Shown here: piece by piece, positions 8,344-14,671 of the stretch
Layout of the letters: every line of letters begins with the position of its first letter
How positions within the stretch are numbered: position 1 is the stretch's first letter
Source of the DNA: Chloroflexi bacterium bin125
GTDB lineage: Bacteria > Chloroflexota > Dehalococcoidia > Bin125
Length of the DNA: 64,000 bases
NCBI GenBank assembly: GCA_002239025.1
Contig: MPNM01000001.1
Span: 321,026 to 385,025, forward strand
Direction: 5' to 3'
Notes under the pieces: model-generated
Databases searched by the model: none
What the model was told of the DNA's origin: nothing
What the model saw: only the letters and a program-made list of their open reading frames with translations
Program-made: the position numbers and the translations under genes

Positions 8344-8436
8344 GGCGCTGACAGCGTTAGCAAGATGTGGCGTTAGCCTAGTTGTCGTGCGTTCGTCGAG
8401 AACGCTTTTCAGTTTAGGCGTAGATCGGGAGTGGGC

Positions 8437-9102
8437 ATGGCGACCATTGGCTTTATCGGCGGGACGGGACCCGAAGGACTGGGACTGGCGATGAGGCTCG
8501 CGATGGCGGGCGAACGAGTGTTGATTGGTTCACGCAGGATTGAACGGGCGGAAGATGCAGCCCAGACCGTCCGCGACGCTGTCTCGGAAGCGGGCGGAAC
8601 GCCAGATGCCGGCGGCGGTGTCAACCGTGATGTGGTTGAACAGTCCGATGTCGTGATCATCGTGGTGCCGTTCGATGGCCACGAGGCCACGCTCAACGAT
8701 CTGCGCGACACGATCGGCAACAAGCTCGTCATCGACGCCGCCGTGCCGCTGACGATGGAGAACCGCGTCCCAGGAATCTCGGATGTCGAGCAGGGATCTG
8801 CGACTGAACAGGCGCAGGCGCTGCTGCCCGACGCCAAAGTGGTGGGCGCGTTTCATAACCTGAGCGCCCGGAAACTTCAGAAACTCACCGACCCAATGGA
8901 AGGCGACGTGCTGATCACGGCGGACGACGCCGACGCGAAGCAGGCCGTTGTAGAGCTCGTCGGCAAGATGCCAGATCTGCGCCCGATCGATGCTGGTCCG
9001 CTGTCGATGTCGAAGTTCGTTGAAGACCTGACCGCGCTGATCATCGGCATGAACATGCGCTACAAGACACAGGCCGCAGTACGGATGGTGGGGGTCGACT
9101 GA
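8437..9102 (+). CDS. npdG: NADPH-dependent F420 reductase (F420H2:NADP oxidoreductase)
   Basis: 221 residues from ATG 8437, with GGGAG five bases upstream; GTG 8431 is less likely. The N-terminus ATIGFIGGTGPEGLGLAMRL is the GxGxxG NADP-binding strand of NpdG/Fno proteins, which here begins with the diagnostic GGTGPEG. ALLPDAKVVGAFHNLSA and the C-terminal half fit the same family. The enzyme exchanges hydride between NADPH and coenzyme F420 in the cytoplasm. Its stop overlaps the cofE start by one base, so the two are translationally coupled, and their pairing supports the F420 assignment. Confidence 0.9.
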   Translation: MATIGFIGGTGPEGLGLAMRLAMAGERVLIGSRRIERAEDAAQTVRDAVSEAGGTPDAGGGVNRDVVEQSDVVIIVVPFDGHEATLNDLRDTIGNKLVIDAAVPLTMENRVPGISDVEQGSATEQAQALLPDAKVVGAFHNLSARKLQKLTDPMEGDVLITADDADAKQAVVELVGKMPDLRPIDAGPLSMSKFVEDLTALIIGMNMRYKTQAAVRMVGVD

Positions 9103-9863
9103 TGGCGCCTCCATCCGAGTACCGAGTCTTCGCGGTTGGAGGAATTCCCGAGATCGTTGACGGCGATGATCTCGCTCAGATCATCGACACCGCGCTCACG
9201 GCGCAGGAGACGCCGCTCGAAGCAGGCGACGTCCTCGTAGTCACTCAGAAGATCGTGTCCAAGGCTGAAGGTCGCGTGATCCGGCTCGATGACGTTTCAG
9301 CCGGCGAATTCGCCGCAGACTGGGCACAGGACTGGGAAAAGGACGCGCGCGCAGTCGAGTTGGTTTTACGCGAGTCGAAGCGAATCGTACGGATGACCAG
9401 GGGACTGATCGTCTCGGAGACACGCCACGGCTGGGTTTGCGCAAATGCGGGTGTCGATCAGTCCAACGTTGGCGGCGGTGAAGCGGTCGCGCTGTTACCA
9501 ATTGATTCGTCAGCCTCCGCGCTGGCGATACGGCAGGGTCTGGTGGCTCGTGGACAGGTTGATGTGCCCGTGATCGTAACCGACACCTTTGGTCGGCCGT
9601 GGCGCAACGGACTGATGAACGTAGCCATCGGCGTGAGCGGGATGAATCCGATCCGCTCCTACATCGGCGAGGTTGACGCCGAGGGCTATGACCTGCGCGT
9701 AACCGAGATGGCAATTGTGGACGAGTTGGCTTCGGCAGCAGAGCCGGTGATGAACAAACTGGACAAGGTGCCGGTCGCCGTCGTGCGTGGACTCGATGTC
9801 CCGGTTGAGGAATACGACCATTCAGCCCTGGTGCGACCGGCAGAGATGGATCTGTTCAGATAA
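9102..9863 (+). CDS. cofE: Coenzyme F420:L-glutamate ligase
   Basis: 253 residues, close to the length of stand-alone archaeal CofE and without the nitroreductase-like C-terminal domain of actinobacterial FbiB. Motifs seen: DVLVVTQKIVSKAEGR (about 47-62), GLIVSETRHGWVCANAGVD, and VIVTDTFGRPWRNGLMNVAIG. It adds glutamate residues, with GTP, to F420-0. ATG overlaps the npdG stop in TGATG. No other F420 biosynthesis gene (cofC, cofD, cofG/H) lies in the window. Two START-like genes follow in the same run. Confidence 0.92.
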   Translation: MAPPSEYRVFAVGGIPEIVDGDDLAQIIDTALTAQETPLEAGDVLVVTQKIVSKAEGRVIRLDDVSAGEFAADWAQDWEKDARAVELVLRESKRIVRMTRGLIVSETRHGWVCANAGVDQSNVGGGEAVALLPIDSSASALAIRQGLVARGQVDVPVIVTDTFGRPWRNGLMNVAIGVSGMNPIRSYIGEVDAEGYDLRVTEMAIVDELASAAEPVMNKLDKVPVAVVRGLDVPVEEYDHSALVRPAEMDLFR

Positions 9864-9872
9864 GGCAGCAAG

Positions 9873-10328
9873 ATGGCCGCGGCGTTCAGTATCCAAGCTG
9901 ACTTTGATTGCTCGCTGGACCAGCTATGGTCATTCATCTCCCACGTGCCTAACCAGGATCATTGGGTCTTCGGCATGTCCGATTCCGAGGTAGTCGGCGG
10001 TGGTGAGGTCGGCGTTGGCTCCGAGATCGTCGGTACGTCGACGGAACGTGGCGAGTCCTTGCGGGTGACGATGGTGGTCAAGGAATTCGATGCGCCTACG
10101 AGGGTGTCCTGGGAAAACACTGATGGACACACGCCATTCGTCACCGTCATCACGTGTTCAGGCAACGAAACAACCTCGAGGATGAAGTACGAAGTCACGT
10201 TGTTCCCCAAGGCGATGTTGATGAGAGTCATGATGGGTCCGTTGCGTCCGCTGGGCAGCATCGTCGCCAACAAGATGCTGAGGGACGAGATTGCGCACCT
10301 ACGCCAGGCCATGGGACTGCGTGCCTGA
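9873..10328 (+). CDS. SRPBCC (START/polyketide-cyclase-like) protein, copy 1
   Basis: 151 residues, nine bases after cofE. The helix-grip pattern is visible: an N-terminal strand, LDQLWSFISHVPNQDHWVFG, and a C-terminal helix rich in Met/Leu. SRPBCC proteins bind hydrophobic ligands in a deep cavity; the ligand is unknown. The segment NQDHWVFGMSDSEVVG is almost repeated in the next gene, so the two are tandem duplicates. Being last in an npdG-cofE operon suggests a ligand or cofactor connected with F420-dependent chemistry (inference). Confidence 0.8.
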   Translation: MAAAFSIQADFDCSLDQLWSFISHVPNQDHWVFGMSDSEVVGGGEVGVGSEIVGTSTERGESLRVTMVVKEFDAPTRVSWENTDGHTPFVTVITCSGNETTSRMKYEVTLFPKAMLMRVMMGPLRPLGSIVANKMLRDEIAHLRQAMGLRA

Positions 10329-10792
10329 TGGTCAGTATCGCGACCAGCGGGTCGGTCACGATCGCGCGAGACACTGCGGATGTTTGGGCCTACGTCTCGG
10401 ATGTCACCAACCAGGATCACTGGGTCGACGGCATGTCGGACTCCGAAATCGTCGGTAATGGGTCGATTGGTCGTGGCACGCAGATTCGAGGGACGTACAC
10501 ATACGGAGGCGGCTCGGCCCCTGTGCTGATGACCGTTACAGAGTTCCGTGAGGGCAAGCGGCTCGCGATCGACGCGTCCGAGGGTCCATTCCCATTCAGT
10601 GGACTGCTATCACTCGAGCAGGCAGGCGGCGAAACCGTGGTCACCAACTCTATGACGGCGGGCAGCGATCACATCGTGACATCAATCATGTTCACACTGT
10701 TGCGGCCAGTGATGGAGATGATGATGGGCCGACAACTGCGCAAAGAGCTGCGACAACTGAAGGACATCCTCGAGTCGGGTGGCGTCGAGTAG
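10328..10792 (+). CDS. SRPBCC (START/polyketide-cyclase-like) protein, copy 2
   Basis: 154 residues from ATG 10328, which overlaps the previous TGA by one base; the frame is open further upstream but that region is the previous gene in another frame. Shares NQDHWVDGMSDSEIVG with copy 1 and the same helix-grip outline, with a C-terminal amphipathic helix containing MEMMMG. The two copies diverge strongly outside the shared motif, so the duplication is old, or the motif is under selection. Same operon as npdG and cofE. Confidence 0.8.
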   Translation: MVSIATSGSVTIARDTADVWAYVSDVTNQDHWVDGMSDSEIVGNGSIGRGTQIRGTYTYGGGSAPVLMTVTEFREGKRLAIDASEGPFPFSGLLSLEQAGGETVVTNSMTAGSDHIVTSIMFTLLRPVMEMMMGRQLRKELRQLKDILESGGVE

Positions 10793-10913: not shown

Positions 10914-11495
10914 CTACGGATCCCGCTCGTCGGTATAGGCAATCTCGAAGTCGTCAAACAGCGCAGCGGCTTCTGAGGAAGCTGCCACTGTTCGCTCGTG
11001 GGCGGATAGGAAGGCATCACGCTCGTTGTCCTGGAGTGCATTGAACTGAGCGTTGTAGCCGCTGTGTAGCTGAGCGATGCCGGTCAGATATCGATTGTGC
11101 CAGTCCAGGGCATGTTCTGGCGGTTCGAGATCAAACAACGCGTCCCGGAAGCGTTCAATCGTGGGAAGTCCGCGACGCAGGTTCTCGCGGTGCACTCGGC
11201 AATCGACGTTGTCCTCGACGCAACCCGTAGCAACCTCAGGATCGACCATCGTTTGAATCTCAACCGTCGCGCGCGATACGAGGTTGCAGAGTTGATCAAA
11301 GTAGCTACCCAGCGGATAGTCGCAAGCGGCATTGACGGATGGTCCAACAGGTGCAGGATCGCCCTCGAAAATGTCGAGTTCGCGCAGCAGGAACAGTGCT
11401 GCAATGAAGCCGATGATTGCGCCGACAATTGGGATCAGCAGCGACGGCGCCTGGCGGCGGCGTCCTGAACCCGATGACGGTCGGTTAGAGGACAT
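10914..11495 (-). CDS. Small membrane-anchored protein of unknown function
   Basis: 193 residues from ATG 11495; a TTG ten codons earlier is possible. An N-terminal basic stretch is followed by one hydrophobic segment, LLIPIVGAIIGFIAALFLL (about residues 18-36), so it should be anchored with its C-terminal part outside. That part contains four Cys (AACDYP, LCNL, GCVED, DCRVH) which could form disulfides, and is otherwise helical. The start lies inside the last codons of the alpha/beta hydrolase gene (11-base overlap), indicating coupled expression. I do not recognise the family. Confidence 0.6.
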   Translation of the reverse strand: MSSNRPSSGSGRRRQAPSLLIPIVGAIIGFIAALFLLRELDIFEGDPAPVGPSVNAACDYPLGSYFDQLCNLVSRATVEIQTMVDPEVATGCVEDNVDCRVHRENLRRGLPTIERFRDALFDLEPPEHALDWHNRYLTGIAQLHSGYNAQFNALQDNERDAFLSAHERTVAASSEAAALFDDFEIAYTDERDP

Positions 11496-12318
11496 CGTTG
11501 AGGAAATCGCGGACGGCCTCGACAAACGCCTCCGGTTGGTCGCCAGCGACCGAATGACCCGCTTCGGGGATCGTCACCAGCTTGACCACAGGCACCTTCT
11601 CGGCGAACTCTTCTGCCTGTTCCCGCTTGAGGACGGGGCTGTTCTCCCCATGCAGCAATAGCGTCGGCACGGTCAGCGCCATCGCAGTCTCCCAGATGCC
11701 GGTGCGGGCATCGGCGACGCCACGGAAGTCTGCTTCGCGAAAGCGCTCGTCGAACATCTTGGCCATCTTGCCGTCGGGTGTTTCACGGAGGGAGACTGCG
11801 AGTCGTTTACGGATGCCTTCTTTGGAGCGGAATGGGTAGTACTGGTGGGTCATATCGACCCAGGCGTCGAGCGAGTCCAGCTCGTACGGTCCGGCCACGA
11901 ACTGGCGGACCTGACTGACGCCGTCAACGTTCACTCCCGGGCCGACATCGATCAGTATCAACGCTCGCAGTTGATCAGGGTGCTCTGCGGCGAAGGTCAT
12001 CGCGTTCATGCCGCCCATCGAGTGTCCGATCACGACCGGACGGTCCAGACTCTGACTCTCGATGAAGCCGCGAATGTCGTCGGCCATGTGATCGCGTGAG
12101 TAATCACTCAACTCCGCAGCACGATCAGAGTGGCCGTGTCCGCGCTGATCAATTGCGTACCAATGAAGCTGGTCGGAGAGCGCGGGCCCGACCTCGTCGA
12201 ATGAATGACAATTCAGTGCGAATCCGTGCAGAGCTACAGCACTGACCGCGGCGTCGCCGCCGTGATCAACGTAGTGAAGTTGGAGATCATTGACATTGAT
12301 GCTGACACCCGTAGTCAT
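11485..12318 (-). CDS. Alpha/beta-hydrolase fold protein
   Basis: 277 residues. Fold marks: oxyanion-hole segment ALHGFALNCHSF (about 29-40), Asp/Arg strand AIDQRGHGHSD, nucleophile elbow VIGHSMGGMNA (Ser about 98), acid in LLLHGENSPVL region, and catalytic His in IPEAGHSVAGD near the C-terminus. Esterase, epoxide hydrolase or haloalkane-type activities all occur in this group and the substrate cannot be told. No signal peptide. Its 3' end overlaps the start of the small membrane protein gene. Confidence 0.88.
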   Translation of the reverse strand: MTTGVSINVNDLQLHYVDHGGDAAVSAVALHGFALNCHSFDEVGPALSDQLHWYAIDQRGHGHSDRAAELSDYSRDHMADDIRGFIESQSLDRPVVIGHSMGGMNAMTFAAEHPDQLRALILIDVGPGVNVDGVSQVRQFVAGPYELDSLDAWVDMTHQYYPFRSKEGIRKRLAVSLRETPDGKMAKMFDERFREADFRGVADARTGIWETAMALTVPTLLLHGENSPVLKREQAEEFAEKVPVVKLVTIPEAGHSVAGDQPEAFVEAVRDFLNDVL

Positions 12319-12375: not shown

Positions 12376-14133
12376 ATGCGAGAGCGAGAAACGACCCTGC
12401 GCTACGCCGTCGATGAGCGGCCGCCTCTGATCATTGGGGCTGGGCTGGGGCTGCAGAACGCGCTGTTCGTGATCTCGGGCGCGATCTTCCTGCCGATTCT
12501 GATGCGCTCGCTGGATATTGTGACCACCGAGCAGGCGGCCTTCCTCGTCTCGGCGACGCTGCTGACGGCCGGTCTGTCAACGGCGATCCAGGCGATTCGG
12601 CTCGGACGGGTGGGCTCCGGCTACATGCTGTTCATGGGCACGTCAGGCGCGTTCTTCGCAGCGACGATGGACGCAATCGAACTGGCTGGGATCGGCTTCG
12701 TCGCGGCGTTGGCACTGATTGCCGCACCGACCGAGTGGTTGGTCGCCCACTTCTTTCGAGTGCTGCGCAACGTCTTTACCCCAACCGTAGGCGGCGTGGT
12801 GGTCATGTCGGTGGCGGTGTTGGTGGTCCCAATCTCGCTCGATCAATGGCAAGGCTCATTCGTTGAAGGCAAGGAAGGTTCGACAGAGTTCCTGTTAATC
12901 GGTGCAGTGGCAGCAGCCGTGATGGTCTCGATGATCATCTGGGCGCCTCCGCGTTATCGGTTGTGGTCGCCGATCCTGGGGCTGGCGGCTGGTTCGCTGA
13001 CGGCCCTGGCAACCGGCGACTGGCACTTCACACAGACGAGCGAAGCGGCGATCGTGGGCTTCCCGATCGGTGAGTGGGAAACGCCCACCTTCCCGCTGAC
13101 GGGAGAGGCCTTCGCCGTGCTCGGTGCGTTCATCATCGCAACGCTGGCTGGCACGTTTGAGACGGTGGGGGACGCGATTGCCGTGCAGCGGGTGTCACAG
13201 CGGAATTTCCGGCGGATCGACTACGAATCCGTCCGTGGATCGCTGAACGCTGACGCGGTCGGCAACGCCCTGGCGGGAATCATGTGTACGACACCAAACA
13301 CGACATATTCGTCGCCGACCGGGATGATTCCGGTGATCGGTGTGGCCTCTCGCTGGGTCGCGCTCTACGGCGGGGCGCTGATGGTCGTGATGGCCTTTTT
13401 CCCGGTGTTGACAGGGTTTGTGCTGGACTTGCCTCTGGCCGCGATCGGATCGGTGACGTTCATCACGATGCTGCTGCTGTTTGTGATGGGGCTGCAGCTT
13501 GCGGTGTCGGGTGGTATCAACGGTCGGACGACGCTGATCATCGGCGTCGCGTTTTGGGGCGGATTCGCGGCGCAGAACGGGTTGTTCTTTACGGACAAGA
13601 TCCCCGAGGCGCTAGAGCCGATCGCAGGCAACTCAATCTCAGCGTCGTCGGTATTGGCAGTGGCGCTAACGGCGCTGTTCCGACTCGCGCCACGCAAGCG
13701 TCTGCGTTGGCGCGGACGCGCCGACGCTGAGGAACTACCCGGCTTGCTGGAGTTCGCCCAGCAGTCGGCCGAGTCGATGCGTCTGCCGGCACGAGCCGCG
13801 AACCATCTGGAGCTGTGTCTCGAGGAAGTCTTCACGTACCTCTCGGAGCAGGGGGAAGTGGACCGGGTCCTGAGGATCGAGCTATCCCCGGACGACAGCG
13901 TGGTCGAAGTGATGGTCACTGATCACTCGGAGGCCCGTGATATTGAGATGCCTAACGTGCCGCCCGACCTGGTGGAAGCAGAGAGCGACGAACTGCGCGA
14001 TCTGGGGCTCGTGCTGTTGAACGAGATGGCGTCGCATGTGAACCACACGACGATTTCGGACTGGCAGTACATCAGCTTCGAGATCTCCAAGTCGTCCGAG
14101 CTGGCGCCGCCGCCCGCGACCGTCGACATCTGA
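12376..14133 (+). CDS. NCS2-family nucleobase permease fused to a degenerate GHKL (HATPase_c_2-like) domain
   Basis: 585 residues. Residues 15-435 are a polytopic NCS2 (uracil/xanthine permease type) domain with about twelve hydrophobic segments, including [13 protein letters not shown] and the substrate-motif region [11 protein letters not shown]. The usual asparagine-glycine (NVG) of that motif reads PTG here. Residues 452-575 form a separate cytoplasmic domain resembling RsbW/SpoIIAB-like ATPases: [12 protein letters not shown] stands where an E-x-x-x-N N-box should be and [11 protein letters not shown] resembles the G2 box. The expected Asn is Tyr488 and the G1 box DxGxG reads DHSEA (516-520), so ATP hydrolysis is doubtful. 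Probably a sensor or docking module on the transporter. Start ATG 12376 has only a weak Shine-Dalgarno. Confidence 0.85.
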
Positions 14134-14143
14134 TTGGACAGTT

Positions 14144-14671
14144 GTGAACTGGTTGGAACTCTCGGACGAGGCGCTGTTGGCGCAGTGCCGATTCGAGCGA
14201 TTTCGCGTGTCAGGTCCCGGCGGTCAGCATCGCAACAAGACCGACTCTGCGGTTCGACTGACCCACGAGCCAAGCGGGGTCGTCGGATTCGCTTCCGAGC
14301 GACGGTCTCAGCATCAAAACCGGTTGGTGGCACTCAAGCGGGTGCGCCGAAACATCGCGATCGAGGTGCGGTCAGATGTTGACCTCGAGATGTATCACCC
14401 ACCGCGAACGCTGCAGCGGATTGTGCCTCGGTCAGTTCAGACAGAGATACCGGGCAAGGATCGCGTGGGGCCCAAGCATCGCGAATTTTGGACCGGCGCT
14501 GGACCGCTCCTGGATCTGTTCAGTGCCGTGAATGGTTCAACCAGCGACTGTGCGTCGCAGATCGGTTGCTCCTCGAATCAGTTGACGAAGCTGTTCGCTT
14601 CTGAGCCGCATCTCTGGGCCGCCGCCAACGCGATTCGAGAACAGCACCGACTCAGTCTGCTGCGTCGATGA
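14144..14671 (+). CDS. Stand-alone RF-1-domain protein with GGQ motif (release-factor-like)
   Basis: 175 residues from GTG 14144, ten bases after the permease fusion. The domain shows [19 protein letters not shown] (about 22-40), including the GGQ loop that triggers peptidyl-tRNA hydrolysis, and [16 protein letters not shown]. There is no codon-recognition domain, as in ArfB/YaeJ rescue factors, but the C-terminal tail is a helical segment of about 65 residues ([18 protein letters not shown]) rather than the short Lys/Arg-rich tail of ArfB. It may hydrolyse peptidyl-tRNA on stalled or split ribosomes; the target state is unknown. Confidence 0.82.

Follow-up and report, generated by a model that had tools for sequence, protein, structure and literature searches.

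The locus and its transporter half

The stretch of DNA analysed here (the window) comprises 64,000 nt of contig MPNM01000001.1 of Chloroflexi bacterium bin125. An open reading frame, here termed P0001, joins a transporter of the NCS2 type to a C-terminal tail of RsbW-like layout. The pertinent features, in window coordinates, are:

11485-12318, minus strand: alpha/beta hydrolase gene (PF00561, 2e-30), divergent from P0001 and 57 bp upstream of it
12376-14133, plus strand: the whole P0001 gene, an NCS2-type transporter with a C-terminal RsbW-like domain, 585 aa (reading frame and Pfam; full length in relatives)
12376-13689, plus strand: NCS2 (UraA/UapA-type) transmembrane region, residues 1-438 (Pfam, UapA match, hydropathy)
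13159-13161, plus strand: E262, the acidic residue of TM8 (alignments to UapA and within the family)
13312-13323, plus strand: TM10 signature position, where SPTG (313-316) replaces the NCS2 [Q/E]-N-x-G (UapA alignment)
13720-14088, plus strand: RsbW/SpoIIAB-like GHKL domain at residues 449-571, now without its catalytic residues (HATPase_c_2, fold match)
13822-13839, plus strand: N-box remnant EEVFTY (483-488), with Asn replaced by Tyr/His (family alignment)
13921-13941, plus strand: G1-box remnant DHSEARD (516-522) (RsbW comparison, family alignment)
13999-14010, plus strand: G2-box remnant DLGL (542-545), kept only in the P0001 clade (family alignment)
14144-14671, plus strand: RF-1 domain protein, ribosome-rescue/release-factor-like (PF00472, 1.3e-17)

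The 585 codons are uninterrupted, and within this one frame Pfam recognizes both parts above cut-off, Xan_ur_permease at residues 24-392 (5.9e-41, 140.9 bits against a cut-off of 27) and HATPase_c_2 at residues 449-556 (E 2.9e-9; 37.5 bits, gathering threshold 27.4). The in-frame union of transporter and GHKL domain, first read from the letters alone in an earlier note, is therefore secure. NCBIfam adds a weak match to the RsbA anti-sigma model over residues 442-558 (1.1e-6, under its cut-off).

Hydropathy peaks extend up to residue 439 with none after 441, a profile compatible with the 14-helix UraA fold, the full-length structural model (pLDDT 39) being too poor for use. The closest solved transporter is UapA, with matches of 7e-16 to 2.6e-14. 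In solved NCS2 proteins the N- and C-termini are both cytoplasmic, and the basic residues after the last hydrophobic segment of P0001 agree, by the positive-inside rule, with a cytoplasmic side for its tail, which we infer.

Comparison within the family used 69 full-length members of 567-589 aa, 11 of them forming the P0001 clade and 58 being paralogues. The TM8 acidic residue binds the nucleobase in characterized NCS2 proteins, and its counterpart E262 is a Glu in all 11 members of the P0001 clade; at this position the paralogues have E (24), K (23), Q (9) or R (2). The TM10 signature of NCS2 proteins is [Q/E]-N-x-G-x4-T. The AENNG/AQNNG stretch of UapA aligns with SSPTG in P0001, which goes on to read SPTGMIPVI, so that the altered transport motif already remarked on, PTG, is real, and the signature is missing from every one of the 69. 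For this reason P0001 is better called a member of a divergent NCS2-type subfamily than a standard nucleobase symporter. With this loss and the variation in TM8, the substrates of the tailed proteins are probably diverse, and to name them nucleobases would be unsafe.

What P0001 has in common with UraA, UapA, XanQ and PbuX (SLC23; PF00860) is thus the membrane region and the TM8 Glu. It departs from them not only in S-P-T-G but in having a folded C-terminal domain of ~140 residues and in falling below the NCBIfam pbuX and ncs2 cut-offs; further departures are the frequent Lys, Arg or Gln at TM8 in its paralogues, and a separate branch in the tree considered below.

The RF-1 domain gene has the same direction as P0001 and starts 10 nt past its stop, a placement found in 9 relatives, and the two are perhaps cotranscribed. 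The alpha/beta hydrolase is common to 10 relatives, and the conserved neighbourhood as a whole consists of hydrolase, RF-1, F420 and isoprenoid genes. At 8431-9863 a gene for an F420-dependent NADP oxidoreductase adjoins one for F420-0:gamma-glutamyl ligase, indicating use of coenzyme F420 in this Dehalococcoidia-related bacterium. Two adjoining polyketide cyclase/SRPBCC genes at 9873-10792 are an apparent tandem duplication.

An RsbW-like fold without its ATP site

A model of the tail (residues 442-585, built with nine aligned relatives; mean pLDDT 76.5, pTM 0.72) has the RsbW layout, and the first 19 Foldseek matches to it are all RsbW, SpoIIAB or UsfX. Superposition with VIA-align gave Z values of 13.5 for RsbW (6m37), 13.3 for SpoIIAB (1tid) and 13.2 for UsfX (8ih8); compared with the 12-13.5 of this group, the value drops to about 7 for the ATPase domains of ordinary histidine (sensor) kinases. 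Direct matches of an RsbW profile to the tail profiles fall in register for P0001, yet at E 0.064 and 0.028 they are weak, so the assignment leans on Pfam and on structure comparison, which support a GHKL fold of RsbW/SpoIIAB type for the tail. On both counts the region behaves as the earlier note supposed, and the Pfam search, taken to E 10, matched no STAS domain in P0001.

The resemblance to RsbW and SpoIIAB (HATPase_c_2) covers the whole domain (Z 12.9-13.5) and includes the Glu at the base position. Where the tail parts company with them is in having no N-box Asn, no G1 glycines and only part of G2, in being attached to a transporter and in the absence of a cognate sigma factor or STAS gene adjacent to P0001. 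By sequence, too, the PDB entry closest to the tail of the P0001 clade, albeit weakly (E 0.06), is UsfX/RsbW of Mycobacterium tuberculosis (8ih8, 8jzt; Z 12-13), but UsfX, like RsbW1 and RsbW3, is a soluble anti-sigma factor or antagonist in a SigF switch, with no transporter fusion.

The extent of the loss is apparent from ungapped comparison of the motifs with an RsbW sequence identical to that of 6m36. The N-box, SEACTNAV in RsbW, is EEVFTYLS in P0001, where E484 preserves the catalytic-base Glu and Tyr488 takes the place of the Asn. The base-position Glu is unchanged in all 69 relatives; the Asn is found in a single paralogue and hence in 1/69. Tyr488 as noted earlier is correct for P0001 itself, but it does not typify the clade, in which His (8/11) outnumbers Tyr (3/11). 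In G1, DEGDSFD of RsbW corresponds to DHSEARD, with the Asp kept (D516) and the glycines gone, again as noted earlier; in G2, GGLGL corresponds to RDLGL, with LGL (543-545) kept and the preceding GG lost. The paralogues have gone further, all 58 being without the G1 Asp and 57 of them having Ser for the G2 Gly. Given the loss of the N-box Asn and of G1 residues, kinase or ATPase activity is unlikely, which favours the earlier idea of a non-hydrolysing tail; from these motifs a kinase role for the P0001 tail would be very unlikely. With none of the N, G1 and G2 boxes intact, it is not filed here as an RsbW/SpoIIAB kinase despite its fold.

Could the tail nevertheless bind ATP or ADP without hydrolysing it and so gate the transporter, the nucleotide sensing that had been proposed? 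The GHKL fold, and D516 and the G2 LGL of the P0001 clade, would be in keeping with this. However, the N-box Asn (the Mg2+ ligand), the G1 glycines and the G2 GG are gone, the residues of the phosphate and Mg2+ site being lost most thoroughly in the paralogues, and with so little of the ATP site left we regard such sensing as improbable.

A site re-made from newly invariant E, N, D and H residues, binding some other ligand or a metal, is a further thought. E483, E484, V555 and H557 (P0001 numbering) are invariant in 69/69 sequences, and the 58 paralogues without exception also keep E513, N522, D525 and D564. Against this, the P0001 clade differs at the latter positions (M513, D522, M525, Q/H564); a site of this kind, for which the residues would have to cluster in the fold, has, to our mind, a slightly slimmer chance still than nucleotide sensing.

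Loss of catalytic residues might also be taken to mean that the domain is decaying, or that the fusion is a chance read-through or a chimeric assembly. The full-length protein, however, is present in 10 other, independent Dehalococcoidia/Chloroflexota MAGs at 63-92% identity and in the same gene order, which with the 69 full-length members disposes of read-through and chimerism; the fusion is real. Nor is the tail a vestige, the sense in which 'decayed' had been used of it: dN/dS over 28 pairs is 0.093 for the tail and 0.049 for the membrane part, and distances in the two parts are closely correlated (mirror-tree r 0.91, from 2346 pairs; among the deep ones 0.85). Artefact or vestige is accordingly a reading to which we give almost no credence. 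The tail is without ATP-site residues, yet selection on it is strong and purifying, its invariant residues hold throughout the 69 sequences, and it has diverged in step with the transporter to which it is joined.

Distribution and shared branching of the tailed proteins

Of 301 Chloroflexota genomes sampled, 31 have relatives of P0001, and a profile of the paralogue tails detects the domain in 29, spread over seven genera in five families. Those 29 genomes have 124 NCS2 places above cut-off and nearly all of them carry the tail, the exceptions being one copy from which it is clearly missing (G042:C9), another probably split between contigs (G069:C44) and the truncated C29 copy of the source genome. 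The search for other NCS2-HATPase fusions that the earlier note envisaged thus found them in quantity. Outside NCS2 genes the profile matches a few contig-end fragments and, weakly, one ORF of 684 aa (5e-6). Presence in nearly every NCS2 gene and in almost nothing else is what one would expect if the tail were an integral part of the transporter. NCS2 genes of any kind occur in 137 of the 301 genomes, most of those beyond the 29 being ORFs of ~430-520 aa with no match to the tail.

Genomes with tailed paralogues mostly have 3-6 of them. All four NCS2 genes of the source genome belong to the tailed subfamily, its C29 copy being truncated: this paralogue (L066 5929-6879) ends after ~285 residues and is likely a pseudogene of the contig C7 copy. 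The domain is easily overlooked. Among 18 diverse paralogue tails just 4 give a HATPase_c_2 match in Pfam, and the paralogue tails had no match in the PDB at E up to 1, but the paralogue and P0001 tail profiles align with one another over their whole length (96.8% probability, E 2.3e-10).

Comparable proteins, with tails of ~140 aa, were found by tblastn on plasmids of the Proteobacteria Thiodictyon, Pseudoroseomonas and Azospirillum, in whose records they are annotated solely as 'solute carrier family 23 protein'. For these tails the evidence of kinship is suggestive: one matches HATPase_c_2 at E 0.0098 across positions 9-125 of 127, another a histidine-phosphotransferase model at 0.0047, and hhalign sets Proteobacterial and Chloroflexota tail profiles in register, though at low probability (E 0.0047 and 6.6e-4), while in hmmsearch the Proteobacterial tails score no better against the Chloroflexota profile than shuffled sequences. 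A Rhodococcus NCS2 protein with a long C-terminus was considered for membership and rejected, its tail being an unrelated OHCU decarboxylase; this fusion heads a urate catabolism operon in Rhodococcus qingshengii RQCS_2 (L108 4929-6842).

A tree built with IQ-TREE from the membrane part only (50 rows, including 20 conventional NCS2 proteins) unites the tailed proteins of Chloroflexota and Proteobacteria in one branch (97/86) separate from the 20, subject to caveats about the root and two long-branch rows. Having all tailed proteins on one branch is consistent with a single origin, and the simplest reading of the sequences would be one fusion before the tailed proteins of the two phyla split. 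No paper describing an NCS2-RsbW fusion was found in the mostly open-access literature searched, that on anti-sigma factors, NHLP and sponge Chloroflexi included, so the earlier statement that no such system is described stands. The tailed NCS2 proteins are apparently an undescribed transporter subfamily spanning two bacterial phyla, and the full-length copies examined all carry a kinase-fold tail without catalytic residues.

What the tail may do

In SulP/SLC26 transporters a membrane part of UraA-type fold leads into a STAS domain in the cytoplasm, a domain from the anti-sigma partner-switching set. P0001 has the same overall plan, but whereas the SulP tail is of the substrate side (SpoIIAA-like) that of P0001 is of the kinase side (SpoIIAB/RsbW-like). 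Transporters of the UraA fold would then have gained domains from either side of the SpoIIAA/SpoIIAB pair, SulP a STAS domain and tailed NCS2 an RsbW-like one, and the role of cytoplasmic domains on this fold becomes testable in a second system.

In the explanation we prefer, an RsbW/SpoIIAB-like domain would have become, probably once, a permanent cytoplasmic C-terminal part of an NCS2-type transporter, afterwards losing its ATP site while its fold persisted and other residues became conserved. It would act in cis without ATP hydrolysis, assembling with its counterpart in the second subunit of a transporter dimer, as we infer, or docking on a cytosolic protein or on the cytoplasmic side of the transporter itself, and would so set stability, gating or transport rate in the manner of STAS in SulP/SLC26. 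Constancy of the tail while the TM8 residue (E/K/R/Q) and the neighbouring genes vary makes its role appear independent of substrate and cis-acting. By this analogy an ATP-independent, cis-acting regulatory or assembly domain seems to us about an even call, with one Proteobacterial neighbourhood, that of Thiodictyon, counting against it by pointing to partner switching.

Partner switching here would mean that the kinase-dead tail captures a STAS protein or sigma factor at the membrane depending on transport state, linking uptake to transcription. The RsbW fold of the tail is itself an argument for this. Mycobacterium smegmatis RsbW1 and RsbW3 have the RsbW fold without kinase activity and retain partner binding (PMC7693655), a precedent for such binding by a dead RsbW fold, and kinase-dead proteins of the UsfX/RsbW1 type still bind sigma factor and antagonist (8ih8, 8jzt). 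Potential partners exist in the source genome: contig C5 has a canonical HATPase_c_2 gene paired with STAS, and C12 has a STAS gene on its own. It is the surroundings that speak against it in Chloroflexota. There is no STAS, SpoIIE or RsbW gene near P0001, whose conserved neighbours are the F420, hydrolase, RF-1 and isoprenoid genes, and no stand-alone STAS within 39 kb of the 124 NCS2 genes of the 29 genomes; SulP transporters near one clade aside, sigma or STAS partner genes are likewise missing beside the Chloroflexota relatives. Dedicated pairing is also unlikely with mostly 3-6 tailed paralogues per genome and a few stand-alone STAS proteins.

The expectation of STAS genes near such fusions, which thus fails for P0001 and, as to stand-alone genes, for Chloroflexota, holds on Thiodictyon plasmid pTs417 (NZ_CP020371.1, L112 20938-29483). 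There a remnant tailed NCS2 gene is followed after 32 nt by STAS, then by genes for a substrate-binding protein, SpoIIE (dCache/HAMP) and an RsbW-like ATPase, and the STAS-SpoIIE-RsbW row adjoins two complete tailed NCS2 genes. This row keeps the transceptor idea alive. Capture at the membrane is in our estimation unlikely, and the fuller scheme, in which the tail would bind or release a STAS or sigma protein by transport state with uptake being read out as transcription, a shade less likely again. If true, such a membrane-anchored switch would mirror the SulP carriers with their STAS tails, and tailed NCS2 proteins are a concrete candidate for a bacterial transceptor.

Several further observations concern the surroundings of tailed genes. 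Those on pTs417 also adjoin an NHLP RiPP precursor gene. In five genomes of one genus (G033, G077, G117, G157, G221) SulP-STAS transporters are encoded at a distance of 3-11 kb from tailed NCS2 genes, and in the source genome they are found near the truncated NCS2 copy (L066 123-6879). Paralogues have as neighbours, by family names recognized by eye and not by profile, a PKS cluster with phosphopantetheinyl transferase, DUF1330-like genes, or ABC substrate-binding proteins. One clade stands tail-to-tail with a large PKS cluster (hydrolase, Sfp-type transferase, carrier protein and PKS) at Chloroflexota loci L045, L049, L055, L059, L061, L070 and L081, and a small DUF1330-like gene adjoins tailed paralogues on the same strand at eight loci (L064, L065, L053, L058, L068, L071, L083 and L046).
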